DNA from: a virus
DNA length: 35,795 bases
Reading direction: 5' to 3' (one strand)
IMG/VR virus record: IMGVR_UViG_3300032238_001554
Coordinates: 1 to 35,795 of that record
The notes under the pieces are model-generated. The model ran no database searches and had not been told where the DNA came from. It saw nothing but the letters and a program-made list of their open reading frames with translations. Both the position numbers and the translations under genes were made by a program. Shown here one piece after another: positions 4,447 to 28,979 of the stretch; the first letter of the stretch is position 1, and every line of letters begins with the position of its first letter.

Positions 4447-6207
4447 TTAGATAATAGAAGTAGCTGTTCCAGCGTTAACGTGGAAGCATAAGTACATAGT
4501 TTCTGGAAGGTGACCAGCTTCAACAAGAGCGTATCTTGATTTAACTGCGATCTTAGGAGACATAGTACCTTCAGAGATTGTCTGAATTGATTCAGCCATC
4601 ATGTAAGGCATGAACTTCATACCTGGCTCATCATCAGCACCTTTTCTACCAACCAATACTCTTGTGTCGTTGAAAGACATGTTTTGGTCAACATACACTG
4701 TCATACCTGCAAGTGAACCTACAGGGTAAAGTGTACCGTTGTTTTGAGTAAGTGTGTTAGTAAACGGAGCGAATGTGAACTGACTGATGTCTTGTAAAGC
4801 AGACGCGATTTGTGAGTTAGTAACAATGAAGTTAGCAGGACCTCTACGACCTCTGTTAGCAACCACGTTAGCAGCAGCTAAAATACGGCTGTAAAGTCTT
4901 CTTTGAACTGTTGATAAGTTCTCGAAAGTACCTGAAGTAGGACCAGCTACAGAACCTGGAGCTCCAGTTATAGGAGAGCCTGTCTTACCTACATAAGCAG
5001 GAACTGCATAACCGGAAGCAGCACCACCAATAACTAAGTTAAGGTTAAGGTTTGTGTTTTCAGTTACAAAGAACTGAGCGTGGTTAGACCAACCGAGAGC
5101 AAAACCTCTAGAAAGGATGTGCTTGTTAATAGCTTGAGAAACCTCATTAACAAGAGCGTTCTCGATCATAGAAACTACGTCGATACCGAATTGCTTGTTA
5201 AGGTCTTGGATTTGCTCAGTAGTAACAGAAGCAGCAACTTGGAAAGTACCAGCTTCTACGAACTTAGTGAAGGTAGAAAGACCGAGTGACTTGAAATAAG
5301 TCGATTCAGCTGTACCTCTTAACATTGGATCGTAGTTTTGAGTACCGTCTACGTAAGGACCTTGCCAGTTGTTTGAGTTAGTTGGACCAGCACCAGAGAA
5401 ACCTTGAATGTGATCTTCCAAAGTCTTAACTAGTACAGCAGCACCACCTGAAAATGCAAGTACGCTACCTGTTGTGGTCATCGTTTGGTTATCAGCTTGT
5501 GAAGAAGCCAATCTAATTTCTGAATTAGCAGTAACAGTAGTTGCAATAGAATCACCAGAAGTAAGTGCAGTAATTCTGAAAATTGGGAAACCGTCTATAC
5601 GTGAATATCCAACAAATTGACCTTTAGCAGAGTCACTAGCTACAGTAGCACCAGTAACTGCTATGATATAATAAGTACCAACTGTTAGAGTTCCAAATAC
5701 TGGAGAAGCAACAGCGATAGGAATTTTAATCATATCTGGTGTATTTGCAACGAAATTAGTAGCGCTATCCGTTGAAGTACCACCTAAAGTACCACCTGCA
5801 TACACATAGTCAAGGTAAGAAAGTACCCCTGTTGGACCGCTCATTGGAATAACAGGAACGATGTCAAAACCAACGGTTTTAGCAGCTACCTGAATAGCCA
5901 ATGGAAGAAGTGAAGGGAACTTATCACCAGAACCAACATAAGGTGTACCAGCATTGTAAGTGTTGTTGTAGTAAAAACCTGGGTTACCTGCACCAGCAGC
6001 ACCACCTTGGTAGTTACCTGGAGGTAAGATATTACCCATACCGCTTAATACACCTAGAGAGTTGTAAGCTCCAGCAGATTCGTTAAGTGAGTGGAAGTGA
6101 CAATATTTAGAAAGCCATTCTACTTTTGAACGATCATTCATGCCGGTCTTGCTCTCGATAATAGGAGACCATGTTTCGTAGATCTCGTTTTGATTTAAGA
6201 GTTGCAT
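4447..6207 (-). CDS. gp23: Major capsid protein, T4 gp23-like, with cleavable propeptide
   Basis: A 586-aa protein forming the head shell hexamers. Family blocks are visible: after a Gly/Asn/Tyr-rich region comes KFPSLLPLAIQVAAKTVGFD and a GPTGVLSYLDYVYAGG segment, matching the gp23 pattern of a conserved 'GFDI..V.PM.GPTG' core. The C-terminal part has the GRRGPANFIVTNSQ and VYVDQNMSFNDTRVLVGRKG blocks. The N-terminus (MQLLNQNEIYETWSPIIE) resembles the T4 gp23 delta-peptide, and SLNE-SAG at residues 40-46 is the likely cleavage point. The mature protein would begin at about Ser44. T4 gp23 is 521 aa and is cut after residue 65. A beta-rich, Thr/Ser/Ala-rich stretch of about 90 residues near 165-260 makes it longer and may be a surface insertion. 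It lies 11 bases after the protease gene and is closed by a strong terminator. Confidence 0.93.
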   Translation of the reverse strand: MQLLNQNEIYETWSPIIESKTGMNDRSKVEWLSKYCHFHSLNESAGAYNSLGVLSGMGNILPPGNYQGGAAGAGNPGFYYNNTYNAGTPYVGSGDKFPSLLPLAIQVAAKTVGFDIVPVIPMSGPTGVLSYLDYVYAGGTLGGTSTDSATNFVANTPDMIKIPIAVASPVFGTLTVGTYYIIAVTGATVASDSAKGQFVGYSRIDGFPIFRITALTSGDSIATTVTANSEIRLASSQADNQTMTTTGSVLAFSGGAAVLVKTLEDHIQGFSGAGPTNSNNWQGPYVDGTQNYDPMLRGTAESTYFKSLGLSTFTKFVEAGTFQVAASVTTEQIQDLNKQFGIDVVSMIENALVNEVSQAINKHILSRGFALGWSNHAQFFVTENTNLNLNLVIGGAASGYAVPAYVGKTGSPITGAPGSVAGPTSGTFENLSTVQRRLYSRILAAANVVANRGRRGPANFIVTNSQIASALQDISQFTFAPFTNTLTQNNGTLYPVGSLAGMTVYVDQNMSFNDTRVLVGRKGADDEPGMKFMPYMMAESIQTISEGTMSPKIAVKSRYALVEAGHLPETMYLCFHVNAGTATSII

Positions 6208-6218
6208 TTTATTAGATC

Positions 6219-8270
6219 TTATTTTTTAAATCTTTTGTCTAATTCTGCTGCGATGTTTGCGATATAGCTGCTGCTAATCCCGCTGTTCGTAGCATTATTA
6301 GGGGTTTGGGATTCGTCTAGTCTTTCCAAGTTAGCTTGTGGAGCTTGAAATCCTCTAGTTCTCCAGAAGTTGTTAATCTGATAAGGAGTATCTAAATGAT
6401 AGAATTTACTTTGGGCAACAATCGATGCCTTCTGTGATTCATTCAAAGAGTTCCAAACAGGTACCAGATCTTGTGGTATCATATCGAGGAATTTTTCTCC
6501 CGAGTTAACTTGTTCAGTTAAAGCGGATCCCATTATTTGAACTACGTCCATACCTGAACTATAATTCTGCTCATTAAGAGCTTTAACGACCTTTTGTTTT
6601 TCGGCCTCGTTCAAAGAAATGAATCCTCTCTTAGTTTGTTCATCGACAAGCTTTAAGAAAGAATATTTATTTTCGTTTATGATTTCTTCAGTTTTGTTCT
6701 TGCTAAGTGATTCAATTAACTCATCAACTTTACCAGAGAGAGAATTATAATCTCCTGAAAATTCTGAAGTTCTTTTACCTTTTTGTACTGAATCGTTTAT
6801 CTGTTTTCCCATTTCATGCCCTGTATTATTAACACCTTTGTTGTTAATAGACTCTGCAAGATACTGAGAATATTCAATACCGGATTTAACTTTTTCAGCT
6901 AAATATTCTGAATAATTTATATTGCCGTTCAATTTTTCTCCGACATATTCAGTATAAGAAATACCTCTATCTAAATTTTCAGCTAAATAATCAGAGTAAG
7001 AAATATTCTTATCCAATTTTTCAGCAAGATATTCTGAATAAGAAATACCTCTGTCAATATTTTCGGCTAAGTATTCAGAATATAAAATATTCTTATCCAA
7101 TTTTTCAGCAAGATATTCTGAATAAGAAATACCTTTATCTACATTCTCAGCAAGATATTCTGAATAAGAAATGTTCTTATCTAAATTTTCAGCTAAATAT
7201 TTGCTATAAGCAATGTTATTATCCAAATTTTCAGCGATATACTCAGAATATGAAATGTTTCCATCAACGTGTTCTGCTAAGTATTTAGCATAAGAAATAG
7301 CTTTGTCAAGGTTTTCAGCTAAATATTTGTTGTAAGAAATAGATCCTTCTAAATTTTCAGCTAGATAATCACCATAGTTAATGGCAGATTCTAAATTTTC
7401 TGCAAGATATTCAGAATATTTTTCGAGTCTTTGGATTCTCTCTTCTAGACCTGCATCTGAAGTGCTAACGTTAGAAGATGAGCTTCTTGAGAAAGATTTA
7501 ATCTCATTCTTTAAAGTATCCATTTCTTTTTTAAGAATGAGTGAATATTCGTTTAGTTCTTCTGCTGTGACAAAGTTATTGTCCATATTCTTTGTATTAT
7601 TTGTATTTTCTAAAAGTCTAGAGATCTTCTCTATATCTTTAATTCTATATATCTGCGTGTTAGAATTTTTTCTTAGTCCTAAGCTTTCATTTATGTTTGT
7701 TAATGATGAAACAACTGAGTTTTTCTTTTCTTCCATAAAATCAGTAAAGCCTAAACTCTCATATAGATTCTCACTAACTCTTTCTAATTGAGCATTTTCA
7801 AAACCAGGATCAGCTACTAGATCATAAGTAAAAATTTTCTTAATCTCTACTTTTTTATTCTCTTTTACGTTTCCTGCTGCTCTAGAAGAGATGGAAATAG
7901 GTATACCAGCATCGACAAGATTTTGTGCAATTTTACCAGCTGGTGTATCAAGAAGTTTAACCTTAATTTTTACACATCTATCATTATTATCGTAATCGAG
8001 ATCAGTGATTATGTGTGAAATATTCTTAAGCGAAACATCGAACTCTTTTGGATGATCTAATTCGCCAACTAATCTATTTTGCTGGATCTTCTTTTTCAAA
8101 TAATCAAGGTGAGGAAGATATTCTTTTTCCTCGTAGATTCTGTGATTTGAATTCTCTACCCCGAAAACTGCTGCAACACCCTCTAGAAAATATTCGCCTC
8201 CTTCTTTCTTGGTAGAAAGATTATTTATCGATTTTTCTAAAATCAGTACATAATCTAGGTTTTTTTCCAT
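6219..8270 (-). CDS. gp21: Prohead protease (gp21-like) fused to a repeat-rich scaffold-like region
   Basis: The first 175 residues are a T4 gp21-type serine protease: GELDHP (His73) matches the T4 GELNHP motif, and ISISSRA (Ser128/Ser129) matches GVSSRG. The T4 enzyme is only slightly longer than this domain, but this protein is 683 aa. After a linker come fourteen tandem 14-residue repeats (residues 285-480, consensus YSEYLAENLDKNIS), then a helical C-terminal region with SLNE motifs at 552-555 and 608-611. In T4 the scaffold is a separate protein, gp22, that the protease degrades. The fusion suggests that protease and scaffold enter the prohead as one chain. Met229 could be an internal start for a protease-free scaffold. 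The gene is preceded by a late-promoter decamer and followed by the capsid gene after 11 bases. The protease call is firm; the scaffold role is inferred. Confidence 0.88.
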   Translation of the reverse strand: MEKNLDYVLILEKSINNLSTKKEGGEYFLEGVAAVFGVENSNHRIYEEKEYLPHLDYLKKKIQQNRLVGELDHPKEFDVSLKNISHIITDLDYDNNDRCVKIKVKLLDTPAGKIAQNLVDAGIPISISSRAAGNVKENKKVEIKKIFTYDLVADPGFENAQLERVSENLYESLGFTDFMEEKKNSVVSSLTNINESLGLRKNSNTQIYRIKDIEKISRLLENTNNTKNMDNNFVTAEELNEYSLILKKEMDTLKNEIKSFSRSSSSNVSTSDAGLEERIQRLEKYSEYLAENLESAINYGDYLAENLEGSISYNKYLAENLDKAISYAKYLAEHVDGNISYSEYIAENLDNNIAYSKYLAENLDKNISYSEYLAENVDKGISYSEYLAEKLDKNILYSEYLAENIDRGISYSEYLAEKLDKNISYSDYLAENLDRGISYTEYVGEKLNGNINYSEYLAEKVKSGIEYSQYLAESINNKGVNNTGHEMGKQINDSVQKGKRTSEFSGDYNSLSGKVDELIESLSKNKTEEIINENKYSFLKLVDEQTKRGFISLNEAEKQKVVKALNEQNYSSGMDVVQIMGSALTEQVNSGEKFLDMIPQDLVPVWNSLNESQKASIVAQSKFYHLDTPYQINNFWRTRGFQAPQANLERLDESQTPNNATNSGISSSYIANIAAELDKRFKK
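6831..7418 (-). repeat. Fourteen tandem 42-bp coding repeats (14-aa YLAE units)
   Basis: Residues 285-480 of the protease-scaffold fusion are 14 in-register units of 14 residues with no gaps. The consensus is Y-S-E-Y-L-A-E-N-L-D-K-N-I-S. Position 4 is always Tyr, and positions 5-7 are LAE in twelve units, IAE in one and VGE in one. At DNA level the units have diverged in synonymous positions, so this is an old expansion held by selection on the protein. Confidence 0.95.
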
Positions 8271-12685: not shown

Positions 12686-12711
12686 ATCCTAATTTACCCA
12701 TTTTTTATTAA
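12681..12711 (+). terminator. Intrinsic terminator of the plus-strand gene
   Basis: GGTAAAT and ATTTACC form a perfect 7-bp stem with the 4-base loop CCTA, followed by CATTTTTTATTA on the plus strand. The stem includes the stop codon of the 88-aa gene and reaches into the 3' end of the convergent glycosylase gene. T-richness lies only on the plus-strand side, so it acts on the plus-strand gene. Confidence 0.75.
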
Positions 12712-13486
12712 TCCAAAATTTTCTACCGGTCGAGTCCAAAATCGGAATACAATCTTCGTTGTTAGAATAATATCTCATCCAATTTTTAAAATTTTTGGAG
12801 GTATCAACCAATTCTTCGTTGTTATACCAATCCTTTAATCTACCACCACCGATCTCGTAAGCTTGTTTGGATATCTCATAACAAAATCTAATCACTTCCG
12901 GGTTTTTTTGAATGTAGTCCACCGATGAAATACCAGGATCGCAATCTATTCTTCCCAAAATTTCAGCCCTTAAATAATTTCCTATGCCATTAAAGTATTT
13001 TTGGTTCATAAGGATTTCATACATTGGTTTACTAAATTCCTTATCACCTAGCGAGGTAAATATAAATCTACTAAATTCTGTAAATTCTGTAAGTGGACAA
13101 GGACCTCTGTTTTGGCTCCATCGATCATCTACTCTCCATCTTGCAAACCTTCTTAAATCATACATGCACAAGGAAAATTGATTCCCGTTAAAAATTAGAT
13201 GTGTGTGTTTAGGAGGTTGTTCTTCAGTTATGAATTTGAAATTCCCTGACATCCCCATTAAAAAATACAAAGAAATCTTCCCTTCTTCATTTGTAAAATC
13301 TACTCTGAGCTCTTTCCCTCTCGCTAGGCTTGAAATCTTAGCTCCTTTGTTTAGGATTTCTTTTATATCTTCTAATTCAGTTTTGGATTTGTGTTTTGGA
13401 TTTTTCCAAACATCATGAAAAATTTTACCAGAGCAACGATTGTTGATATGGTCGCTCATAATTTTTATTTCTGCAATTTCTGGCAT
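12689..13486 (-). CDS. Fpg/Nei-family DNA glycosylase, zincless-finger type
   Basis: A 265-aa base-excision repair enzyme that removes oxidised bases and nicks the strand. The N-terminus MPEIAEIK supplies the catalytic Pro2 and Glu3, matching the family MPE(L/G)PE. The helix-two-turn-helix is clear (NQKYFNGIGNYLRAEILGRI), and SLARGKELRV supplies the conserved Lys hairpin. The C-terminal CxxC...CxxC zinc finger of bacterial Fpg is absent. In its place is a hairpin DSTGRKFWINKKW, as in the zincless finger of NEIL1 and viral Nei proteins. It is convergent with the plus-strand 88-aa gene and 20 bases after the UvdE-like gene, suggesting a small repair pair. It could prefer oxidised pyrimidines, but the substrate cannot be read from sequence. 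Confidence 0.92.
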   Translation of the reverse strand: MPEIAEIKIMSDHINNRCSGKIFHDVWKNPKHKSKTELEDIKEILNKGAKISSLARGKELRVDFTNEEGKISLYFLMGMSGNFKFITEEQPPKHTHLIFNGNQFSLCMYDLRRFARWRVDDRWSQNRGPCPLTEFTEFSRFIFTSLGDKEFSKPMYEILMNQKYFNGIGNYLRAEILGRIDCDPGISSVDYIQKNPEVIRFCYEISKQAYEIGGGRLKDWYNNEELVDTSKNFKNWMRYYSNNEDCIPILDSTGRKFWINKKWVN

Positions 13487-15096: not shown

Positions 15097-15977
15097 TAAG
15101 GGATAAAAGTATTAATTATAGACTTTGCTTTTTCTAAATCTCTATCTCTGCATTCACCGTATGATTCACCGGTTAAATGTGGAAAATTTTGAATTAAAAT
15201 TTTCTTAGCATTAGCCTCATTCTTTAATTCAAGAAATATGACTCCAAGTAAAGACTTTACTGAGTTTTCTAGATCTTTCATCTCTTTATGATATCTCATA
15301 AAACAGTAAGCTTCTGCTGCTTTAATGATATCTTTTATATCTGAAATGTTTAAAGAATTAAGGCAGTATATCTCATTTGAATCCACATTACAAGAAACCC
15401 CTTGAAAAATTGAATTATCTCCTGGCAACTTTTCGCAAAAAACTATTTTCCATCCAGTGTTGAAAGGCCCTTCAATTTTTTCTGAATTTTCTATCGGAAT
15501 TAAAAGATCATTAGGATCTTCATTTTCTAAAGATCCCCATACAATGTTACCACCATCATATTTTAAGTTCCCAGTCATTTTTTCTCTTGAACTAATAGAA
15601 AGGCCAGTAAGATTTCTTGTGTTTCCCCTGTCTTCCGTAAATTCTATAGATCCAGGAATTAAGGCGTATATTTTTTTATCCTTTAATCCCTGTATTTTAA
15701 TCCTATAAGACTTACCATCGATTGACTTAAATGTCTCAATGATTTCTCCAGTTATTTTCTTTTTCTTCCCTTGTACATTACCTTTAACTAAATCCCCAAT
15801 TTGAAATGCAGAGTCTTTTACTAATAAGCTAGGATCTGGATCTCTACCGACAGAAATAGATAAATCCTGAAATGGCTTATAATCCACTTTAAAAACTCCA
15901 TTAGAGCTATTAAAGCCATCTCCAGTTAATGTCTGGGAGAAATACTCATTTAAGGATTTAATTTTATTGTTTTTCAT
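15096..15977 (-). CDS. 293-aa unknown with SH3/KOW-like segment
   Basis: No overall family is recognised. The N-terminus (IKSLNEYFSQTL) again contains SLNE, as in the capsid and internal head proteins. Residues about 57-110 (FQIGDLVKGNVQGKKKKITG, then YRIKI and YALIPGSIEF) have the beta pattern of a small SH3/KOW-like barrel. A similar segment occurs in the 771-aa protein at 29672. The C-terminal half is helical with a few Cys. The start at 15977 overlaps the stop of the UVR-motif gene by four bases, and its stop overlaps the DUF115-like start. A structural or head-associated role is possible but unproven. Confidence 0.65.
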   Translation of the reverse strand: MKNNKIKSLNEYFSQTLTGDGFNSSNGVFKVDYKPFQDLSISVGRDPDPSLLVKDSAFQIGDLVKGNVQGKKKKITGEIIETFKSIDGKSYRIKIQGLKDKKIYALIPGSIEFTEDRGNTRNLTGLSISSREKMTGNLKYDGGNIVWGSLENEDPNDLLIPIENSEKIEGPFNTGWKIVFCEKLPGDNSIFQGVSCNVDSNEIYCLNSLNISDIKDIIKAAEAYCFMRYHKEMKDLENSVKSLLGVIFLELKNEANAKKILIQNFPHLTGESYGECRDRDLEKAKSIINTFIP

Positions 15978-16524: not shown

Positions 16525-19500
16525 TTAATTTATAGCCGCATCCGTTTGAAGTGTTCCAGTATTATCTATATAAATTACTGTGGATGAAGCTCCGGTTGTG
16601 CCCATGATTGTTTTACTTATAGTGCTGTTATAAATATAAGTAGCGGAAGAAAAATTATCTCCTATCTTTGCAGTCTGTATGTCTGAAAAATAAACGTATC
16701 CTGTTTGTAAACTTCCCTTTGAAAAAATACAACCATCTAGATTTGAAATTTTAGAACCGCTACATCCGCATCTAAATGATGTATTTCCTATATTTTCTAA
16801 TTTTGAATCGATTAAAATGTGTTCATCTGATCCATAATTTTTAAAATAAGAGCTGTATAAATTTGATATGTAGGAGTTTTTCAAATTTCCTTCCAATATA
16901 GAGGAGGAAATACTTCTCAAACTTAGATCGTAAAAATCTGAATTAATACTAAATATAGATTGGCTACAATTTTCAAAACAGGCATTAAAAAATGATAAAG
17001 ATGTTCCACTACCTAGAGGTGTTTTAACAGTTTGAATAATTAAATTCGTACAATTTTCTAATTTTATAGAATTTGCTTTTTCTTTAATATCCCCTGAATC
17101 GAAGAGAATTGATAGGGTGTTTCCTACACAAGATCCGTCGAAAGATATATCAGAAATGTTTATTGTTTGATCCCTCGTTATTATCACATTATTAGGAATA
17201 TTTGTCGAATCATAAAGCTGTCCAGTAAATGGATTAAGAACCCCGGAGTTTTGTAATCTATTTTTAAAGCTTATATTTTTAACAGAAATTGTTTCAGTAA
17301 TATCAATAGCAAGAAAATCCCTAGATGTTGAAGATATAGGTATATTAAAAGTAACGGGGGTATCCCCAACTGAAATCGAATATGTGGCCTGTTGTGTGGC
17401 CATATATAGAAGATTAGTATCTACTAGCTTCACCCAATTATTATTATATACAGGATTTATACCACTAGAATCTGGATTTACACATCCCCAAAAGCTACTA
17501 GCAGCAGGAGATGCGGTAACTCTTACAATATCTCCAGGGCTATATGTTGTAGGAGGTGAAACAGAGTCCCAAACAGGGATAGAACCGCTATTTATACTCC
17601 ATCTTCTAAATTTAAAATTTCTCCAATCAAAATAAGCTTCTATATTTCTATTTGTGTCTTTCCTATATGTAATTGCTCCTCTAAATCCTGATATAATTGT
17701 CGAAGGTGCAATACTGAAAGCTTCGTCTGTGTAAAAATTGGAAGGTTCCGGATCCCAATAAATAATATCTTCTGGGAAATCTTCTGAAATAACCCTCCGA
17801 TCTATAGTGCTCGAGGATGTGGCGAAAACGTAGATCTCTTCGGTGGTCCCTGTGTTTGTAGTACCTCCTGTTTCTAAAATGTAATGTATAGTTCTGAAAT
17901 CGTTTATCCTATAAAAATTTCCAACAGTTAAGGTTCCTCCTGAAAATAAAGCATAGAAAGCTGCATATGTTAGAGATGTTACTGAAATAGCTCCAGTTGC
18001 TCCGGTAGCGCCAGATCCAGTTGGACCTGTAGCCCCTGCTGACCCTGTAGGTCCAGTTGCACCAGCAGATCCAGCAGATCCAGTAGCTCCTGTAGCACCG
18101 GAAGACCCGGTTGCTCCTGTAGCTCCAGCTCCAGTAGGACCTGTTGGACCAACGGGACCTCCAGAAGGACCAGTTACCCCTGCAGCTCCAGAAGGACCTG
18201 TTGGTCCCATCTGTCCTTGAAGGGCTACAACAGAGATTCCAGTATCTCCTAATGTTATATTTACTGTTCCTACACCTCCTGAATCATATTCCACCTTAAC
18301 CCAATACTGGTCATTTGCTGCAGCATCTATAATTCCAGTTACTACAACGGTTTCAAAAGGGGATTCAGATCCGGATACGTCCTCAATTGTCTTGAATGCT
18401 TTCATATTAGAAACTTCTGCTGGTGATGAAGTTCCTAACATTAGTTTAGTAGTTATCAAAGAAGAAGCGGATGCGGTTGTATTATCTAATCCAACTTTGT
18501 AACTTACAAAATATTTACCAGCTACTAAGGTTTCGAAATATGTCCCTGTTATACCTGAAGGGATATAGTTTCCTGTTGTGAAGAAAGAAGAATCTATAAG
18601 ATTTGTGGTATCGAATCTTACTGGTAAATTACCTCCTGTTGTTATGCTTTGTGAATTTGAAACATTAGAAAGATCCAAATAAGGCATAGTACCTGGGGAT
18701 CCTGCAGGACCAGTTGCACCAGTTACCCCCGAACTACCTGCTGCTCCAGTTGGTCCAGTAGCCCCAGCAGATCCAGTTGATCCAGTTGCTCCAGTTGCTC
18801 CATTAGATCCTGCAGTACCAGTTGCTCCGGTACCTCCAGTTGCTCCAGTAGTTCCAGTGGATCCTTTTATATTGGTTGTTAAATTCCAAACTCCTGAAGA
18901 TTTAACGTAAATGTTGTAAGCAACAGTGTCTAAATACGTGTCACCATTGATTCCTAAACTTATCAAAGGAACTCCGCTTCCAGTTCTAAAACTTTGCCCA
19001 GTAGGACCAGTTACCCCGGATCCAGTAGCACCAGTAGAACCAGTTGGACCTGTAGATCCTGTTATACCTGCTCCAGTAGCACCTACTGATCCAGTAGGTC
19101 CTTGAGCCCCAGTAACTCCATTAGTTCCTGCACTTCCTTTAGGACCTTGTGGACCAGTTGCTCCTGTAGATCCAGTGTCTCCAGTTGGACCGGTTACACC
19201 AGCTTCTCCGGTTGGACCAGTGGCTCCAGCTCCGGTAGCACCTGTAGCACCAGTAAGTCCTATTGAACCTGTAGGTCCTGTAGGTCCTGTAGGTCCGCCA
19301 GATCCAGTTGCTCCTGTGGGACCTCCAGGAGTTCCTGGTGCTCCTGTGGGACCAGCGGGTCCAGATGAGCCAGTTGCAGTAATTAAGCTTACCCATTGAT
19401 CTATTCCATCAGCACCTCCCGACATTGATCCTCCAGTAACGTTTGTTGGAACCGCTCCAGATAGGGTAATTGTGTCTCCGTTAGAAGTTGAACCTAATCC

Positions 19501-20169
19501 AGGAAGAGCTATAATAGTTACAGTGTTTAAATTGTATTCTGCTAAGCAAGGACCGGTTGGATTATTAGATATGGCAGAAACAAGCTGCTGTGCAGTAATT
19601 GTTCCGTTGTCTAGCCAAGAAGTTGTTCCAGCAGTAGTTCCGTTATAAAGAACAGAAATAGTTTGACCAGTAGCTCCAGTGGATCCAATATCGAAAGAAA
19701 AAGTTGCTCTTACTTCACCTACCTCAAAATAAGCTTCGTAATCATTACCAGTAAATCTTATTTGTCCAGCTACACCAGGAAGAATAGTATCATCCGTATA
19801 TGTTCTATCTAATACAAGTCTTAATCTTCCGCCCTTGTTAGAATTTCCTACTATAACATTTCCACCACCGAAAATGTCGTTGACCGTATTTAAACCGCTA
19901 GAAATTATATCCCCGTTTGCGCCATTTAACTGGATGGAAGTTGTTCCTTCTATAGGAAGTCTAACTAAATTGGCTTTTAAGTTCCCTACGTTTAATTTAC
20001 CAGTGGGAAAATTTAAAGATTTATCCTGTATAGAAATCCCAAAAGCTTTATTAAGGAGATTAAATCCTTCTTGCAGTTGGGAAAAATTAGCATTGGTAAT
20101 TTGGTTATTTGCACCAATGGTATTAGAGGCAAGTAATTGCTTTATGGTTATCTGACTGAGCTCCTGCAT
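16525..20169 (-). CDS. Collagen-like tail fibre or virion fibre, 1214 aa
   Basis: The N-terminal 260 residues are beta-rich after a short helix and probably attach the fibre. Then three Gly-x-y blocks occur, coded at about 19000-19371, 18697-18863 and 17990-18213. They are dominated by GPT, GAT and GST triplets, a trimeric collagen-like rod interrupted by globular parts. One of these interruptions reads [20 protein letters not shown], a domain common in such fibres. The C-terminal 330 residues have short Ser/Asn-rich beta repeats with NISDISF and [13 protein letters not shown] patterns, suggesting a beta-helix tip. The fibre is preceded by a late-promoter decamer. It may bind the host surface. 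Which virion structure it belongs to is not clear. Confidence 0.85.
17990..19371 (-). repeat. Three collagen-like Gly-x-Thr coding blocks
   Basis: Blocks at about 19000-19371, 18697-18863 and 17990-18213 encode uninterrupted or nearly uninterrupted Gly-x-y triplets. Pro or Ala dominates at x and Thr at y. They are visibly more GC-rich than the rest of the window because of GGN, CCN, GCN and ACN codons. Proline is mostly at x, unlike animal collagen where hydroxyproline sits at y. Confidence 0.93.
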
Positions 20170-21749: not shown

Positions 21750-22217
21750 TTAAAAAATATTTGTTATCAATATATCATAGTCAGAAAATTCAAAAAAATC
21801 CAGGTTGTCTGCAAGTATCCTTCTCTCTGTAGAATCTGCATCATTTCTTTGTCCCATTCGTTCTTTCCTAATTTCAAGATCAGGATTTAGATAAATTACT
21901 AAACTTCTTTCCCTGTCTTTTTTATCCAAAGATCTTAATCCCGCAGGACTGAGGATGAACAGATCTTTAGCTTCGAATTCTTCTTTTGAAATACCATAAT
22001 GCCATCCATTAAACTTTTGCATTTCTAAAAAGATATCTGGATTTGATTCAAAAAAATAAGAATCTCTAAAATAGTAGTCTTTTGCTTCAGTCTCACCCGT
22101 TCTTGGAGGTCTGCTTGTGAAAGATATCCCATATTTAAAACCCTTAGATTCCATTTTTTTTCTTAAGAAATCTTTTCCTGATCCCCCTGGTCCAACTATG
22201 ATTATTTTATTGCTCAT
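21750..22217 (-). CDS. gmk: Guanylate kinase-like nucleotide kinase
   Basis: A compact 155-aa P-loop kinase. The P-loop is VGPGGSGKDF near residues 7-16, and the guanylate kinase signature SFTSRPPRTGE with the GMP-binding Arg and Tyr (YYF) follows. FNGWHYGISKEEF is the usual G-x-x-YG block. The enzyme would convert GMP or dGMP to the diphosphate for DNA synthesis. It is about 50 residues shorter than bacterial Gmk, mainly in the C-terminal helices. It lies between clamp loader and RNase H in the replication block. The substrate could differ (phage dNMP kinases), but the signature favours guanylate. Confidence 0.85.
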   Translation of the reverse strand: MSNKIIIVGPGGSGKDFLRKKMESKGFKYGISFTSRPPRTGETEAKDYYFRDSYFFESNPDIFLEMQKFNGWHYGISKEEFEAKDLFILSPAGLRSLDKKDRERSLVIYLNPDLEIRKERMGQRNDADSTERRILADNLDFFEFSDYDILITNIF

Positions 22218-22282
22218 TAATGTCGTGTTTTGTGTAGGAAACTAAGCTTTAAGTGATGTTTCCTTAATCAACGTATAGTTTT

Positions 22283-23236
22283 CTATCCGTTTTTATTTAC
22301 TATCTGTTGAAGAGAAAAAACTAAAGCTAATAGACTAACTGAAGGATCTATAACTAGATTTCTTTCAGCCTGGTATTTAGCAACTGTTATAATTATACCA
22401 GGAATGAAATTAGCACTTTGCGGTTTTTTTTCTTGTATCCACTTTATAAAATCAGAACTCAAAGCTGACATTACCTCATCTGTTTTAGACGAATATTGTC
22501 CAACGATATACTGGTAGTTTTTGACGGGCTCCGGTTTAGAAAAGATCAGCTCGAAAACCTCTTCATGACCCCAAAGGACCTCGTTAATTTTAGATTCAGT
22601 TAAATCGTCTAATCCATCTATGCTCCACCTTTGAATTGTATTCAAGGCAGATCTCATATCGGGGAAATATTTTTTTGTAAATAGGTCTAGATTTTTTTGA
22701 TCGTGACGTATTTGTAAAGCGGATAGGATTTTACCTACTCTGTCTTTCCATTGGCCTTGAATTTCATCTTCCTCCTGTTTATTGATTGGATCAAAATCGT
22801 ACAATTCAAATCTAGAACGAATAGCTTCCGGAATTTTATTAAGGTAGTTACAAGTTGCAACAAATCTTGTACCTTTTGCATATTTTTCAATTGTTCCTCT
22901 AAGAGCTTTATAAAACTGTTCAGAAGCCCCATCAAACTCGTCTAGTATAACTATTTTTGTTTGGTTTTCACCGTCCATTATAGAAACAGTGGAGCAAAAG
23001 TCATGAATTTTAGTCCTAATAGTTTCAACTGAGCTTTCATCAGAAACATTAATGAATATATGTGGATGATTCTGCATTAATATTTTAGCCATACTAGTTT
23101 TTCCACATCCGGGGGATCCAGATAAAAGCACGTTTTGTTGAAGTCCTCCCTCGAATGAATTTTTTATCCTCGAAGGAAGGATCATATGTTTCAACTCTTT
23201 AGGTCTGAGTTTCTCTGTTAATAATTCCTGTATCAT
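22283..23236 (-). CDS. gp44: Clamp-loader ATPase subunit, T4 gp44-like
   Basis: A 317-aa AAA+ protein, almost the same length as T4 gp44 (319 aa). Walker A is LLSGSPGCGKTSMAK, Walker B is KIVILDEFDGA (the DEFD form is typical of gp44), and SRFELYDF is the SRC-type arginine-finger block. It loads the sliding clamp onto DNA together with the small subunit. Its ATG overlaps the ligase stop by four bases (ATGA). No late decamer precedes it, in line with early expression. Confidence 0.93.
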   Translation of the reverse strand: MIQELLTEKLRPKELKHMILPSRIKNSFEGGLQQNVLLSGSPGCGKTSMAKILMQNHPHIFINVSDESSVETIRTKIHDFCSTVSIMDGENQTKIVILDEFDGASEQFYKALRGTIEKYAKGTRFVATCNYLNKIPEAIRSRFELYDFDPINKQEEDEIQGQWKDRVGKILSALQIRHDQKNLDLFTKKYFPDMRSALNTIQRWSIDGLDDLTESKINEVLWGHEEVFELIFSKPEPVKNYQYIVGQYSSKTDEVMSALSSDFIKWIQEKKPQSANFIPGIIITVAKYQAERNLVIDPSVSLLALVFSLQQIVNKNG

Positions 23237-24555
23237 TTACAATTTTCTTTAAGATCGTCTGCTTGAGTTTTATCGTTCCTGATTTCTATAAATCTTGGAA
23301 GAAATAGGGACCAATTATTATTCTTATCGTTGATTATGACATTATACTGGACAGAGCATATTTTTCCAATGTGCTCATCAGGATTTTTACTCAGTTCTTG
23401 AAGATCGTTATCAGTAAATCCAGATCCGATTTTAACTTTCAATGTTCCGGAAGAATCCTCACAAATAAATCCACCTATGAATCCCTCCCTTTTACCTTCT
23501 CCTGGATACCATCCCTTAATTACCAAATCACATTCGTTTACTTCTTTTAACTTAATCCAATTCTTTGATCTTTTACATTCATAAACGTGGTCTGGATTTT
23601 TTAAAATAACTCCCTCGCCTCCTTTATTTACTACATTTTTATAAAATGTGAAAATATCTTCTTTTTCTTTTGTTACAAAAGACTCCGCTATAGTAACAGA
23701 ATAAGTGGAGGATCCATCAAAAACACCTTCTAATGTTTGTCTTCTGATTTCGAAAGGAACTACACCCTTTCCTTTTTTCAGTGTCTCTGCATCCTCTAAA
23801 TCAAAAACATTAAAAATAAGATCATCACCGATTGAATCTGCAGGTTTCCCTTTTAACATTTGATTTACCTTACCTGAAACACTTTTTCTATTTAAATCGG
23901 TTAATTCTCCATCAAAAAACCAATCTCCGATTAACCCTGAATTTTTTATCAAATTTCTACACTCGAGAGATATTCTAGTGAGATAATGTGAAGGTATTTC
24001 ATTAAAAGCTCTTGTGAAAAATTTAACCTCAGGCCCAGATACAAAAGCAATTATCCTTACTCCGTCGTATTTTTCTTCACAAATAATTCTATCCCATTTA
24101 TTAATTTCTTTCTCATCATCTTCTGCTAACATAAGACTAGGATCAGGAATAACTTCACTACCGAAAGCTTTGTTGATTAGTTTTGCCCCAATACCAATAT
24201 TCAGTCTTTTAGTTAATATCTTTCCAAGCATTTTTCTTTCTTCAAAAGAGGCCTGTATACAATTAACTAATTCAAAAGCTTCCTCTCTAAATCTGTCATT
24301 AGGAGCGGGGGCATCAAATAGTCTTGAAGTTAAATCTTTGAATTTTTCAAAAACGTCATAGTCTACCACATAAGGGTGTTCAGCTACCACTTCTAACTTG
24401 TGAAGCTTGGTAGTTAAAAACGGATCTAAAGCAACCTTCAGAAGATATTCCAGTTCTTTAGAGTAGTTGTTTTTAATAAGCTCCTGTTTAGCTTTTTGTG
24501 ACCCTTCACCTGTAGAAGATTCTATTTTTAGAAGGACAGAAAGTTCTTTTTGCAT
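23233..24555 (-). CDS. gp30: ATP-dependent DNA ligase, T4 gp30-like
   Basis: A 440-aa ligase with nucleotidyltransferase motif I EEKYDGVRI (AMP-accepting Lys162, close to Lys159 of T4), motif III around DWFFDGELTD, motif IV GGEGVILKNP and motif V SKNWIKLKE, followed by an OB-fold region with GEGKREGFIGGF. It seals nicks in replication and repair. The N-terminal helical domain is shorter than in cellular ligases, as in T4. It begins the replication block, 17 bases after a TAAATTTG element. It is slightly shorter than T4 ligase (487 aa). Confidence 0.93.
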   Translation of the reverse strand: MQKELSVLLKIESSTGEGSQKAKQELIKNNYSKELEYLLKVALDPFLTTKLHKLEVVAEHPYVVDYDVFEKFKDLTSRLFDAPAPNDRFREEAFELVNCIQASFEERKMLGKILTKRLNIGIGAKLINKAFGSEVIPDPSLMLAEDDEKEINKWDRIICEEKYDGVRIIAFVSGPEVKFFTRAFNEIPSHYLTRISLECRNLIKNSGLIGDWFFDGELTDLNRKSVSGKVNQMLKGKPADSIGDDLIFNVFDLEDAETLKKGKGVVPFEIRRQTLEGVFDGSSTYSVTIAESFVTKEKEDIFTFYKNVVNKGGEGVILKNPDHVYECKRSKNWIKLKEVNECDLVIKGWYPGEGKREGFIGGFICEDSSGTLKVKIGSGFTDNDLQELSKNPDEHIGKICSVQYNVIINDKNNNWSLFLPRFIEIRNDKTQADDLKENCK

Positions 24556-24571
24556 GTTGTCTTGTTTATTG

Positions 24572-24579
24572 CAAATTTA
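24572..24579 (-). promoter_or_regulatory. TAAATTTG, Bacteroidota -7-like element before the ligase
   Basis: TAAATTTG on the minus strand matches the TAnnTTTG box of Bacteroidota promoters and lies 16 bases before the ligase ATG, in a 130-base gap. The matching TTG box is not visible upstream. It is the best candidate for a host-type promoter of the replication block but remains weak. Confidence 0.35.
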
Positions 24580-24685
24580 GAAAAGTAAAGAAATATAAAA
24601 AAAAGATATCTAATATTTTACAGGATAAAACACAGGAGTTTCTGTATAATCCTTAAAAATTAAAAAAGAAAATGGAGGTTTAAAA

Positions 24686-26293
24686 CTAGGATGCTGGTGT
24701 TTCCGGTGTTTCAGTGGTTTCTTCTGCAGCAGCGGAAGCAGATGCTGAACCTTCGGATCCTTTATTTTTTTCTAGATAAGTTTTATTCATTTTGATATCA
24801 TCATAACTTAAATCTAAAAATCTTTCTATTAAGAAATCTTGATTAAAATACTGGACCTCCTCGTCGTTTACTGTTTCTTTGATTTCTCCAAGAGATGTAA
24901 CGAAGTCTATTTTCTTAATCAGCTGCTCTATTTCTCTTGATTCACCAAAAACGTTATCACTTTCAAATTTAACACCTATTTGGCTTCTAAATTCAGAGTC
25001 ATTTTTCAAATTTGGAAAATCTAAACACATTTGGATCCATAGAGGTTTAACAACTATTTCTTGGAATATTGATCTCAGTCTAGTTACAAATTTAGAAAAC
25101 CTAACCTCGTCTCTTTCAGATCCGTCTGCTGGAATCTTAAAAGGATTTCCAGCACCAACTCCCCATCTTGCGCTAAATCTATTGTAGGGTATTTTAGAAT
25201 CTTGTCTTAACTTATTATAGAAGTAAACAACAGAATCCATTATATTTAAATTTGGGCCCTGAGCATTTATAGTTTCCACTTTTACTGAATTACCTCCTTG
25301 TTGTGGGAAAAGGTAATTTTTATAAAACTGAAGATCTGGTCTTCCATTTATGGCAAGCTCGCCTGATGATGTATCCAGTTTTATATCCTCTTTATAAACT
25401 GACATAAGTTCTCCTAAAGTTTCTTTTGCCTTTTGAGGAGACTTACTTCCAATTGGAACTGTCATTTTAATTCTGAATTGCGAATTCATAACGTTCCAGA
25501 TTATTCTAGAATGCTCCATGATCTTTAAAAGATTATACGAGCGTATTAATCTTTCGCAATAGGAAATTCTTGAAGCAGTATTAGCTTTAGCATATGATAT
25601 GTAAATAACTTGAGCATCAAGAAGCTTTCTCTGTCTTGTAGTTTCTCCGTAGTATTGCCACCAAATAGATTCTCTAGTTCCATCAGCTTTTTTTTCAACT
25701 GCTGGAGTTAAACTTGTAGCATCTAGCTCTTTAAATCCTACTATTTCTTTTCCATCGCTAGAATAAATTATCTCAAAAGCTAAAAATCCTTCAACCAGAA
25801 GCTGTCTGAAATATTGCCACCCTGTTAAACCGTTACAGAAATTATGAAGAACATACAGCTTTCTGAAATTTTTTCTTAAAGCTTTTACTACATCCTCTTT
25901 TAGATCCATATTAATCATGCTAGGATGACAAAAAAAGTTCTTCTCATCGTATACTATGGCTTCATCGCAAATAGTGTCTAAAATGTACTCTATTTCAGCA
26001 TTTAAAGCGAATGTTCTTAAGAAATCCCTCTTGAAAGGGTAATCCTTATCGAAATATGCAATGTATTTCCTGTTGGAAGTGTCTTGAGCAGCTATGCTAT
26101 AAATAAAATCCTCGTCATCTTCGGAAAACCCGAACCTTTCTCTCATATTGGCTTCTGAGATACCTATGGCCATAGAATCTTGAATGACCATATCTTTGTA
26201 GTCCATTCCGAAACTTCCTAGCCCGCTTATAGTTTTTATAATCCTTGATATATTAGGATTGAATTTTCCTATATTATCTACAAATCCAGCCAT
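24686..26293 (-). CDS. gp20: Portal vertex protein, gp20-like, second copy
   Basis: A 535-aa portal protein (T4 gp20 is 524 aa). Family blocks include AEIEYILDTICDEAIVYDE near residue 95, an ARVGFK-type block read here as IVGFKELDATSLTP, MEHSRIIWNVMNSQFRIKMT, and the stem region KAKETLGELMSVYKEDIKLD. It differs from its upstream paralogue in an insertion-free central loop and an Ala/Ser/Thr-rich C-terminal tail. The gene starts three bases after its paralogue ends. The portal forms the ring through which DNA is pumped and the tail attaches. No frameshift or broken block is visible, so both copies look functional. It is followed by a 130-base gap before the ligase. Confidence 0.92.
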   Translation of the reverse strand: MAGFVDNIGKFNPNISRIIKTISGLGSFGMDYKDMVIQDSMAIGISEANMRERFGFSEDDEDFIYSIAAQDTSNRKYIAYFDKDYPFKRDFLRTFALNAEIEYILDTICDEAIVYDEKNFFCHPSMINMDLKEDVVKALRKNFRKLYVLHNFCNGLTGWQYFRQLLVEGFLAFEIIYSSDGKEIVGFKELDATSLTPAVEKKADGTRESIWWQYYGETTRQRKLLDAQVIYISYAKANTASRISYCERLIRSYNLLKIMEHSRIIWNVMNSQFRIKMTVPIGSKSPQKAKETLGELMSVYKEDIKLDTSSGELAINGRPDLQFYKNYLFPQQGGNSVKVETINAQGPNLNIMDSVVYFYNKLRQDSKIPYNRFSARWGVGAGNPFKIPADGSERDEVRFSKFVTRLRSIFQEIVVKPLWIQMCLDFPNLKNDSEFRSQIGVKFESDNVFGESREIEQLIKKIDFVTSLGEIKETVNDEEVQYFNQDFLIERFLDLSYDDIKMNKTYLEKNKGSEGSASASAAAEETTETPETPAS

Positions 26294-26296
26294 AGT

Positions 26297-27895
26297 TTAT
26301 AATTTAAATGTTTCACTTGAACCCTCTTCAGGTTTCTTTTCCTCTCCACCTTTAGCTTCTGTTTCTTTTTTCCTTTCCGCTTCCTCCTTTTTAGCTTTTT
26401 CGTTGTCCAGTCTATCTTGATTGGTCATTCCCAGATATCTGTCAAGAAGAAACTGTAAACTAAAATAAGGTTTTCCCTCCGTATTTTTAAGACCTAATAT
26501 CTTTATAACCTGGTCCTTCCTAGCGGACATAATTTCCATTTCTTTAGCCTCTTTGAACATATTCTCCTTCACATAATCAAGACCAAACTCGGATTTGATA
26601 ATATAATCATTCTTTAAGTGCGGGAAATCTAAACAAAATTGAACCCATAGGGGTTTCATAAGTATTTCTTGATATATGGATCTTAATCTATTAATGAATT
26701 TACTAAACCTGATTTCTTCCATATCTAATCCATCAGCTCCGAAAGTAATAGTTCCTTCAGAACCGCTATCTTCTCTTCCAAATCTTGAAACTGGTACTTT
26801 TGAATCGATCCTTAATTTATTAGCAAAATATTGCAGCGCCTTAGTATCAGAAAAAGCTGTAGCATCCCCTGCTCCAGGTAATGGCTGTATATCTGGTGTT
26901 CCATTGGGTGACGAGGGCATTAAATAATTCTTAAAGAATTGAATCTTAGGTCTTCCATCAACAGTAAGCTCCCCTGAATCTGTATTTAATCGTATATCCT
27001 CTTTATAGATCGACATAAGCTCACCTAAAGTTTGCTTAGCTTTTTGTGGAGATTTTGTACCGACTGGTACAGTCATAGCCATCCTATAAGATGAATTCAT
27101 CACGTTCCAAATTATCCTCGTGTGCTCCATTATCCTCAAAAGATTAAATGATCTAATTAACCTCTCGATATAGCTGATTCTTGAAGCTGTTCCTCCACCT
27201 TTAGCGTAGCTGATATAGATTATTTGTGAGTCATACAATTTTCGGGTTAAAGAAGGATTATCCGGATATTGTATCCATATATCAACGAAAGAACCATCGG
27301 GCTGTGCTTCGACTGTTGGAACTAGAGAAGCTGCATCTATTTCTTTGAATCCAACTATGTTTTTTCCCTTCTTGTCGAAAACAATCTCAAATGCTAAATT
27401 TCCCTCGATTAAAAATTTTCTGAAAAGATGCCAAGCAGATATGTCTTGGTTGAATCCGAAAAGATTGTAAACCTCTTTGTATCTTTTTTGTGTTTTAGCA
27501 TAAACTTCTTTATCAACATCCTCGTGCTGCATAAAGGAGAAATAAGCCCAGAAATTTCTTTCGTCGTAAACTATAGATTCGTCACAAACTGTATCTAATA
27601 TAAACTCTATTTCTGGATTTTGAGCAAATCCTTGAACATAATGTCTTTTATTCTTAAAGTCTTTATCGAAATAAGCAATATATTGCTTTGTGGTAGTATC
27701 GGCTTTTCTTAGACCAAAAAGGAATGCCTCATCCTTTATTCCTCCTTTTTTAAGGAATTGAGCTTCAGTAACCCCAACTGCATGGGAGTTTTTAACAACT
27801 AAATCTCCATAGGCCATTCCAAAATTTCCCACTTTTTTGATATTCTCTATGATAGAGCTAAAAAAAGTTTTTTTCCCGTCGGTAAATCCGGCCAT
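26297..27895 (-). CDS. gp20: Portal vertex protein, gp20-like, first copy
   Basis: A 532-aa portal protein that aligns end to end with the next gene. Shared blocks include MAGF..., PEIEFILDTVCDESIVYDER, MEHTRIIWNVMNSSYRMAMT, KAKQTLGELMSIYKEDIRLN and FINRLRSIYQEILMKPLWVQ. It differs by a Pro/Gly-rich segment (SSPNGTPDIQPLPGAGDATA) and a GSEGTITFGADG loop around residues 330-400, and by a Lys/Glu-rich C-terminal tail. The ATG overlaps the stop of the 197-aa gene (TAATG), and a late decamer lies 18 nt upstream within that gene. Both portals would be made from one transcript. Confidence 0.93.
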   Translation of the reverse strand: MAGFTDGKKTFFSSIIENIKKVGNFGMAYGDLVVKNSHAVGVTEAQFLKKGGIKDEAFLFGLRKADTTTKQYIAYFDKDFKNKRHYVQGFAQNPEIEFILDTVCDESIVYDERNFWAYFSFMQHEDVDKEVYAKTQKRYKEVYNLFGFNQDISAWHLFRKFLIEGNLAFEIVFDKKGKNIVGFKEIDAASLVPTVEAQPDGSFVDIWIQYPDNPSLTRKLYDSQIIYISYAKGGGTASRISYIERLIRSFNLLRIMEHTRIIWNVMNSSYRMAMTVPVGTKSPQKAKQTLGELMSIYKEDIRLNTDSGELTVDGRPKIQFFKNYLMPSSPNGTPDIQPLPGAGDATAFSDTKALQYFANKLRIDSKVPVSRFGREDSGSEGTITFGADGLDMEEIRFSKFINRLRSIYQEILMKPLWVQFCLDFPHLKNDYIIKSEFGLDYVKENMFKEAKEMEIMSARKDQVIKILGLKNTEGKPYFSLQFLLDRYLGMTNQDRLDNEKAKKEEAERKKETEAKGGEEKKPEEGSSETFKL

Positions 27896-28488
27896 TATAT
27901 TACTGAGTTTTTCTTATATATCTCTTCTATCGGGGTCCCTTCAATAGACCTTGTTTGAAGATATACTATTCTAGTCCAGTCTTCATAAGTAATTTCTTTC
28001 ACATCCTTTATTTTTTGTATATCCCATGCCCTATAAGAATTCTTCCATGGGATACCCCTCATTATATTATCAATTATCGGATAGTCGCATTTTAGCTGAA
28101 TCTGATCTAAAAAATTCCCGCGCTCTACTCTTTCTATATTTGTTTGTATTTGGGATTCGTAAACACTACTTATCCTTATAAAAAAGGCTAATCTGAATTG
28201 AGGTGGAATAAGTATTAGATCTAAACCTCCAAAAACAACTTTATCTTCAGAGGTGAAAAATCCTGTGAAAAAAACTACGGGTCTCTTATTGATGAATTTT
28301 TTGTTCTTTTCTATTCGGTCGTTATAATCAAATGAATAGATTTTTCCTATTAAAAGATCTGAGATTTCTAAAGTTGATTTTTTATCCAAATAGTTTTTTT
28401 GCCAATAAAGAAAAGATTCTTCAGACAAAGAGGAAAGACCTGAAACGCTGGATTTATATTCTTCAAATCTTTCATTGAAAGGCTTCAT
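27895..28488 (-). CDS. 197-aa unknown next to head-completion nuclease
   Basis: I do not recognise this family with confidence. The core GKIYSFDYNDR...RPVVFFTGFF...LDLILIPPQFRLAFF is beta-rich, followed by a helical C-terminus ending in EEIYKK. It overlaps the gp4-like gene by ATGA and the first portal by TAATG, so it is part of a head/neck cluster. The T4 gene order would place gp53 (196 aa) after gp4, but this protein lacks any visible gp53 pattern. A neck, DNA-end or portal-associated role is inferred from position. Confidence 0.7.
   Translation of the reverse strand: MKPFNERFEEYKSSVSGLSSLSEESFLYWQKNYLDKKSTLEISDLLIGKIYSFDYNDRIEKNKKFINKRPVVFFTGFFTSEDKVVFGGLDLILIPPQFRLAFFIRISSVYESQIQTNIERVERGNFLDQIQLKCDYPIIDNIMRGIPWKNSYRAWDIQKIKDVKEITYEDWTRIVYLQTRSIEGTPIEEIYKKNSVI
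27914..27923 (-). promoter_or_regulatory. Late-promoter-like decamer AGATATATAA inside coding sequence
   Basis: AGATATATAA on the minus strand, 18 nt before the ATG of the first portal gene. It lies within the last codons of the upstream 197-aa gene. Its sequence and distance match the intergenic elements, which supports a real promoter giving separate portal expression. Confidence 0.6.
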
Positions 28489-28979
28489 CTCATTATAAAG
28501 TTTTCATTTATGGCTCCGAACTTATAGCCCCTATCTTCTGCGAATCTTTTAGCTGCTTCAAATTTTGCCCTATTAGTAATCCAGATTTTTAATTTCTCAT
28601 TATACGACCTTATCTTTTTCTCTGTTATATTACCTGTGGGTTCTTTTGGTTTTTTATCTAGCGCATACTGGTTTTCTGGTTTTATTTCTATTAGCCAGTT
28701 TTCAAAAGAATCCCCCTTTTTTACTTGAATGTAATAATCTATATTATAATTGTGTTCTCTTTTATCTATTGGACTCCAGTATTTTACACACACCGCTTCA
28801 GAGCTCCATTTTGTTATGTTTGGATTCATATCACAATACTGACAAAACCTTCTCTCCCAAGAACTCCTGTAAATAATGTTATTAATATCCCCGATATATT
28901 TTTTTGGATTAATTGGGGTATAAAGTCCCTGCTGGTAAACAGAATTCTTATTAGGTCTAAGATTTTTGATATTCTTCAT
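28485..28979 (-). CDS. gp4: Head completion nuclease, T4 gp4-like
   Basis: A 164-aa protein with the gp4 head-completion pattern: QQGLYTPINPKKYIGD, IIYRSSWERRFCQYCD, NPNITKWSSEAVCVKYWSP, then the nuclease core YNIDYYIQVKKGD and LIEIKPENQ, and a final KFEAAKRFAEDRGYKFGAI. The D...EIK arrangement is the PD-(D/E)xK type site shared with TnsA-like nucleases. In T4 it acts on DNA ends and head completion before tail joining (150 aa there). It is the first gene of the head/neck cluster, upstream of two portal genes. Confidence 0.88.
   Translation of the reverse strand: MKNIKNLRPNKNSVYQQGLYTPINPKKYIGDINNIIYRSSWERRFCQYCDMNPNITKWSSEAVCVKYWSPIDKREHNYNIDYYIQVKKGDSFENWLIEIKPENQYALDKKPKEPTGNITEKKIRSYNEKLKIWITNRAKFEAAKRFAEDRGYKFGAINENFIMR

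Follow-up and report, generated by a model that had tools for sequence, protein, structure and literature searches.

Two full-length gp20-type portal genes and two tail-tube genes in a lineage of uncultured T4-like phages

The portal locus

The window analysed here is the whole stretch of 35,795 bases, positions 1 to 35,795 of the virus record IMGVR_UViG_3300032238_001554. On its minus strand, two adjacent genes each encode a portal protein of the T4 gp20 type. The upstream gene, portal A, is transcribed first and is followed by portal B. The pair and the principal genes around it are arranged as follows.

28485..28979, minus strand: head closure/completion protein, T4 gp4-like (phrog_218, E 1.9e-43)
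27895..28488, minus strand: DNA end protector, T4 gp2-like, immediately before A (phrog_429, E 1.9e-8, and synteny with contig G012)
26297..27895, minus strand: portal A, T4 gp20-type, 532 aa, upstream gene of the pair (PF07230, E 1.5e-62; phrog_213, E 6e-60)
26294..26296, minus strand: 3-base gap from the stop of A to the start of B (2-23 bases in relatives)
24686..26293, minus strand: portal B, T4 gp20-type, 535 aa, downstream gene of the pair (PF07230, E 1.6e-61; phrog_213, E 9e-59)
23233..24555, minus strand: ATP-dependent DNA ligase, first gene after B (phrog_114, E 1.6e-85)
6219..8270, minus strand: prohead protease, gp21-like, with a long repeat-bearing C-terminal region, single copy (phrog_207, E 1.3e-38; Peptidase_S77, E 1.8e-10)
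4447..6207, minus strand: major capsid protein, gp23-like, single copy (PF07068, E 1.5e-39; phrog_138)

An earlier note on this DNA had described two open reading frames of 532 and 535 aa with three bases between them, and their positions were verified on the minus strand. Both genes lie in one reading frame and are divided by a TAA stop and one further codon. The two proteins align with 49% identity over 503 residues (E 2e-173). In the Portal_T4 family (PF07230), for which the curated cut-off is 22.9 bits, portal A scores 212 bits over model positions 9-433 and portal B 209 bits over positions 9-432. Alignment to T4 gp20 places the wing, stem, clip, tunnel-loop and crown regions in both proteins. 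Neither gene contains a frameshift and neither protein lacks a domain, which bears out the claim that the two align end to end over all portal blocks. Judged by their sequences, A and B are typical T4-family portals.

The likeness to T4 gp20 (PF07230; PDB 3JA7) extends from the fold family and the wing, stem, clip and crown domains to the head-assembly context, with gp2- and gp4-like genes upstream and the protease and a gp23-like capsid gene downstream. The window also encodes a late sigma factor upstream of the portals. Downstream, the DNA ligase, a clamp loader and further replication genes are found, and the protease and capsid genes are 16 kb off. The gp2-like gene occupies the same place in the single-portal sister contig G012, and the sister gene order is gp4-gp2-portal-protease-capsid. 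In the two-portal lineage the order is gp4-gp2-A-B, replication block, protease, capsid; when the two-portal contig G007 was compared with G012, a replication block, DNA ligase included, lay between portals and protease only in the former. The adjacency of A and B is strict although the flanking genes have been rearranged.

Within the prohead protease gene, at positions 6891-7371 (minus strand), a 42-base (14-aa) unit resembling YSEYLAENLDKNIS is repeated 11.5 times. This array could possibly represent a coiled scaffold fused to the protease.

Distribution and descent of the pair

Viral contigs were scanned with three queries, namely A, B and one distant relative. Portal A followed by portal B on one strand was present in 195 fetched loci of the lineage, which belong to two deep phage clades. 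Nine loci contain a single copy, every one of them interrupted by a contig end, and there is no true exception. A copy absent or decaying in all relatives would, by the earlier note, have spoken against the idea; both are kept in every fetched locus that a contig end does not cut, so that this check did not refute it. At the 80 distinct A-B junction sequences the gap measures 2-23 bases and a stop always intervenes. The genes are in frame at 46 of these junctions and out of frame at the other 34, and at none of the 80 do they overlap or fuse. Some contigs contain open frames of 1093-1104 aa, which were considered as natural A-B fusions and rejected, since a stop separates A from B in every one of them. 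Counts over whole records gave exactly two gp20-type portals in all ten large contigs (82-175 kb) and one full-length portal in each of the sister and outer groups.

Among GenBank phages, portal B matched 2,057 records at 2,059 places, and none of these 2,057 records contains a second full-length portal. The two surplus places fall in paired 735-kb genomes in which the extra piece is a remnant. In LR756501 it consists of 62 residues of a gp20-type portal (15166-15351, minus strand), far from the intact portal, and is perhaps what is left of a lost second copy. Since this piece is so short, a second portal in LR756501 was rejected.

No description of a two-portal phage was found in open-licence papers. 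On the evidence of 50,697 phage records and this literature, two things are new, namely the presence of two full-length gp20-type portals in one lineage and, as detailed below, their co-occurrence with two tail tubes; the view that the locus departs in an undescribed way from one portal gene per phage is upheld by the GenBank records, the single-portal outgroups and the literature alike. The lineage is widespread, uncultured and T4-like. A host look-up returned no relatives among 84,980 species genomes; to judge from related phages only, the hosts may be Bacteroidota. The nearest relatives of its portals and tubes are the single-portal sisters LR756500 (462 kb) and contig G012 (161 kb), the Lak megaphages, PAU and PTm1. 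The single-portal relatives share the gp4-gp2-portal order but carry only a single portal and a single tube.

In a tree of 78 portals, all A sequences form one clade (support 100/98) and all B sequences another (98/94), and the same two subclades recur inside both. In a reduced tree, from which long-branched rows were removed, A and B together form one clade (100/99), and the group of LR756500 and G012, with single portals, falls outside it. Taken together, these topologies indicate one duplication which preceded the split of the subclades. Since then the copies have neither recombined with each other nor been lost. Pairwise distances among A sequences and among B sequences are correlated with r = 0.99, mean divergences are equal (0.327 and 0.339), and both copies are equally distant from the outgroup. 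The substitution rates of the pair, which the earlier note had singled out for comparison, reveal equally strong purifying selection on both, with dN/dS in close pairs of 0.018 (A) and 0.020 (B). Neither copy is degenerating, and neither evolves at an accelerated rate.

Positions were mapped on T4 gp20 with domain limits taken from the literature (PMC4493910), and a column was counted as fixed at a threshold of 93%. The same fixed residue occurs in A and B in 26 of 71 clip columns and in 12 of the 24 columns of the first stem helix. Both proteins thus keep the conserved regions which in T4 serve ring building and motor docking (PMC4493910). Only eight columns are fixed to different residues in the two copies, so that no clear signature of two complementary interfaces emerges. 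A structure prediction for a fused A+B chain, with the stop read as Gln, reached a pLDDT of 48.7 and a pTM of 0.33, a confidence too low for reading an interface.

The differences in a central loop and in the C-terminal tails which had been noticed between the two copies are present in the window; they are not diagnostic of A and B. The Pro/Gly-rich loop of A corresponds to the inner-clip/channel loop of T4. The LPGAG version of this loop occurs in only one clade of A, and the A proteins of the other clade and all B proteins have the loop form of the single-portal relatives. Owing to this restriction LPGAG cannot underlie a conserved division of labour, and it was rejected as the key difference of A. 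The C-terminal tails are variable throughout. A role of loop and tails as the basis of specialisation is not supported.

Duplication of the tail tube

The tail-tube region lies beyond the window and is known from relatives. Self-comparison was carried out on two large two-portal contigs, one per subclade, and on the single-portal contig G012. It brought out a second strongly conserved structural pair in both two-portal genomes, two adjacent genes of ~190 aa (T1 and T2) which have a single counterpart in G012.

G001 (IMGVR 3300008267_000005), 131661-132822: T1-T2 tandem tail-tube genes
G007, 109442-110590: T1-T2 tandem tail-tube genes

Tail-tube profiles match both proteins (T1: phrog_3629, E 3.7e-8; T2: phrog_45, E 4e-5, and phrog_3629, E 7e-5). 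The modelled structure of T1, whose confidence is modest (pLDDT 66.5), superimposes on T4 gp19 (5w5f) with Z 11.3 and an rmsd of 5.0 over 149 residues, and on T4 gp54 with Z 12.5; the structures it matches are mostly tail tubes and Hcp. The predicted structure thus supports a tail-tube fold for T1. A sheath gene (phrog_34521, E 1.9e-119) is located upstream of the tubes in G001, and in G012 the same sheath homologue immediately precedes the single tube gene. Between the sheath and tube genes of G001, a homing-endonuclease-like gene occupies the opposite strand (129893-131485, minus strand).

The T1-T2 pair was found in 78 of 80 tube loci, and the remaining two are interrupted by contig ends. 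Contigs known to encode two portals have two tubes in 20 cases, with one more cut, whereas the single-portal records with a detected tube have one tube in 14 of 14. In the tube tree all T genes group together (98/96), as do those of T1 (95/97), and the duplication maps to the branch matching that of the portal. Topology tests do not reject one tube duplication (p-AU 0.40). Separate duplications in the two clades are disfavoured, with a p-AU of 0.016 when the tubes of clade II are held together and of 0.077 for clade I. T1 and T2 are separate genes in the 78 complete tube pairs, as are A and B in all portal pairs. Capsid, protease, terminase and sheath are single copy in the two-portal and single-portal groups alike.

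Possible arrangements of the paired proteins, and further observations

Textbooks describe the portals and tail tubes of tailed phages as homomeric rings, and a tailed phage has one portal vertex. It has long been asked how a 12-fold portal operates between a 5-fold capsid, a 5-subunit motor and a 6-fold tail. T4 and all other gp20-type phages examined have one portal gene and a homomeric 12-mer; the present lineage differs in carrying two obligatory-looking paralogues. Since capsid, protease, terminase and sheath each exist once, only one kind of vertex has to be served. Given one vertex, one motor and one sheath, and yet two equally constrained, adjacent portals and two tubes, the simplest account is that the members of each pair share a ring. 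We therefore propose, with about even confidence, that A and B, born of one ancestral duplication, have become obligatory co-subunits of a single 12-subunit portal ring and that the tube rings are mixed likewise. A and B would most likely be produced at similar levels from one message and would co-assemble at the one portal vertex, most simply as six alternating A-B pairs. Coupled expression, co-assembly, alternation and a 1:1 ratio are what we infer from the features of the genes. The strict adjacency would be equally expected of proteins that are made together and assembled separately.

The tail tube forms the next long stretch of the DNA channel and was duplicated on the same branch as the portal. 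T1 and T2 would probably mix in the same manner, giving a six-subunit ring of three T1-T2 pairs. In the resulting channel the rings would be pseudo-12-fold and pseudo-6-fold, and their true rotational symmetry would be halved. One shared branch with one event for each protein makes a functional link suggestive and does not prove it. That the whole channel has lowered symmetry, with six A-B pairs feeding three T1-T2 pairs and functionally linked duplications, is thus a tentative extension, and we rate it as somewhat improbable.

Duplicated virion proteins with divided roles and different places in the virion are familiar from T4, where gp23/gp24 and gp19/gp54 are such couples; A/B and T1/T2 resemble them in being duplicated virion proteins. 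A and B might build two separate homomeric 12-mers acting at different places or stages; one could serve initiation and the other packaging, or the two rings could be stacked. T1 and T2 would likewise make up different tube segments. Each portal is full length with every domain, the T1 model matches both gp19 and gp54, which are tube paralogues of distinct segments, and the two tube proteins of certain contractile injection systems also make up distinct segments (PMC7394362). We nevertheless regard separate rings as unlikely in view of the single portal vertex, the single capsid, protease and terminase genes, and the equal rates and distances and strict 1:1 pairing, which give no hint of a lesser role for either copy. 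Also unlikely, in our judgement, is a division in which one copy is the portal and the other a specialised partner outside the ring, which might start assembly, act as a chaperone-like decoy or regulate ring size. The last of these roles is conceivable, as T4 gp20 alone yields minority 11- and 13-mers (PMC4493910). In addition, some positions are fixed only in A and others only in B. However, a protein outside the ring should show relaxation, and the stem helix, clip and motor-docking region are similarly conserved in two equally constrained copies; the tube duplication would moreover require an explanation of its own.

Extra dosage, or two unspecialised portals used alternatively or mixed at random, appears very improbable. 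Phage P22 does tolerate variant portal subunits produced alongside the wild type, where mixed rings are expected and the titre is not reduced (PMC9320234). Redundant copies would not, however, be expected to stay cleanly separated into two clades at 49% identity across two deep lineages, without a single locus in which a copy is lost, converted or swapped. An assembly artefact or a chimera of two phages can practically be dismissed. The source data are metagenomic contigs only, but the 80 distinct junction sequences come from many samples and include contigs of 100-175 kb; these junctions, the purifying selection and the retention in all loci reject an artefact and a pseudogene alike.

Shared rings of A with B and of T1 with T2 would have partial counterparts in known systems. 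The tail tube protein pb6 of phage T5 arose by duplication and fusion and forms a trimeric pseudo-hexamer (PMC5717097). The likeness lies in a ring-subunit duplication that turns true symmetry into pseudo-symmetry. The T5 copies make up a single fused chain, and the tube alone is affected, whereas here the genes are separate and the portal is duplicated too; this separateness means that neither pair is a fusion of the pb6 type, though both may work alike. In the fungal V-ATPase c-ring, an unrelated protein, duplicated subunits became obligatory paralogues without new function (PMC7982386, citing Finnigan et al. 2012). There the hetero-ring is demonstrated, whereas in the phage lineage it is proposed. 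Joint retention of the paralogues through divergence, a mark of such hetero-rings, is found for A and B.

If the portal ring does alternate, packaging does not need identical subunit positions. A lineage that has kept both portals and both tube proteins while diverging so deeply would allow the symmetry question to be tested, and the lineage would provide a datable viral case of a homomeric ring turning dependent on two subunits.

Several further genes attracted attention. Collagen-like Gly-X-Thr/Ala repeats occur in two proteins of the window, one of 870 aa near the head genes (8297-10909, minus strand) and one of 1214 aa (16525-20169, minus strand). A DNA repair gene with the N-terminal domain of a formamidopyrimidine-DNA glycosylase (MutM-like) lies at 12689-13486 (minus strand). 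A third tandem pair, encoding proteins of 500-560 aa, is shared by both subclades (G001, 82720-85854; G007, 22079-25298). It has no PHROG or Pfam match, and its sequences are possibly fibre-like.
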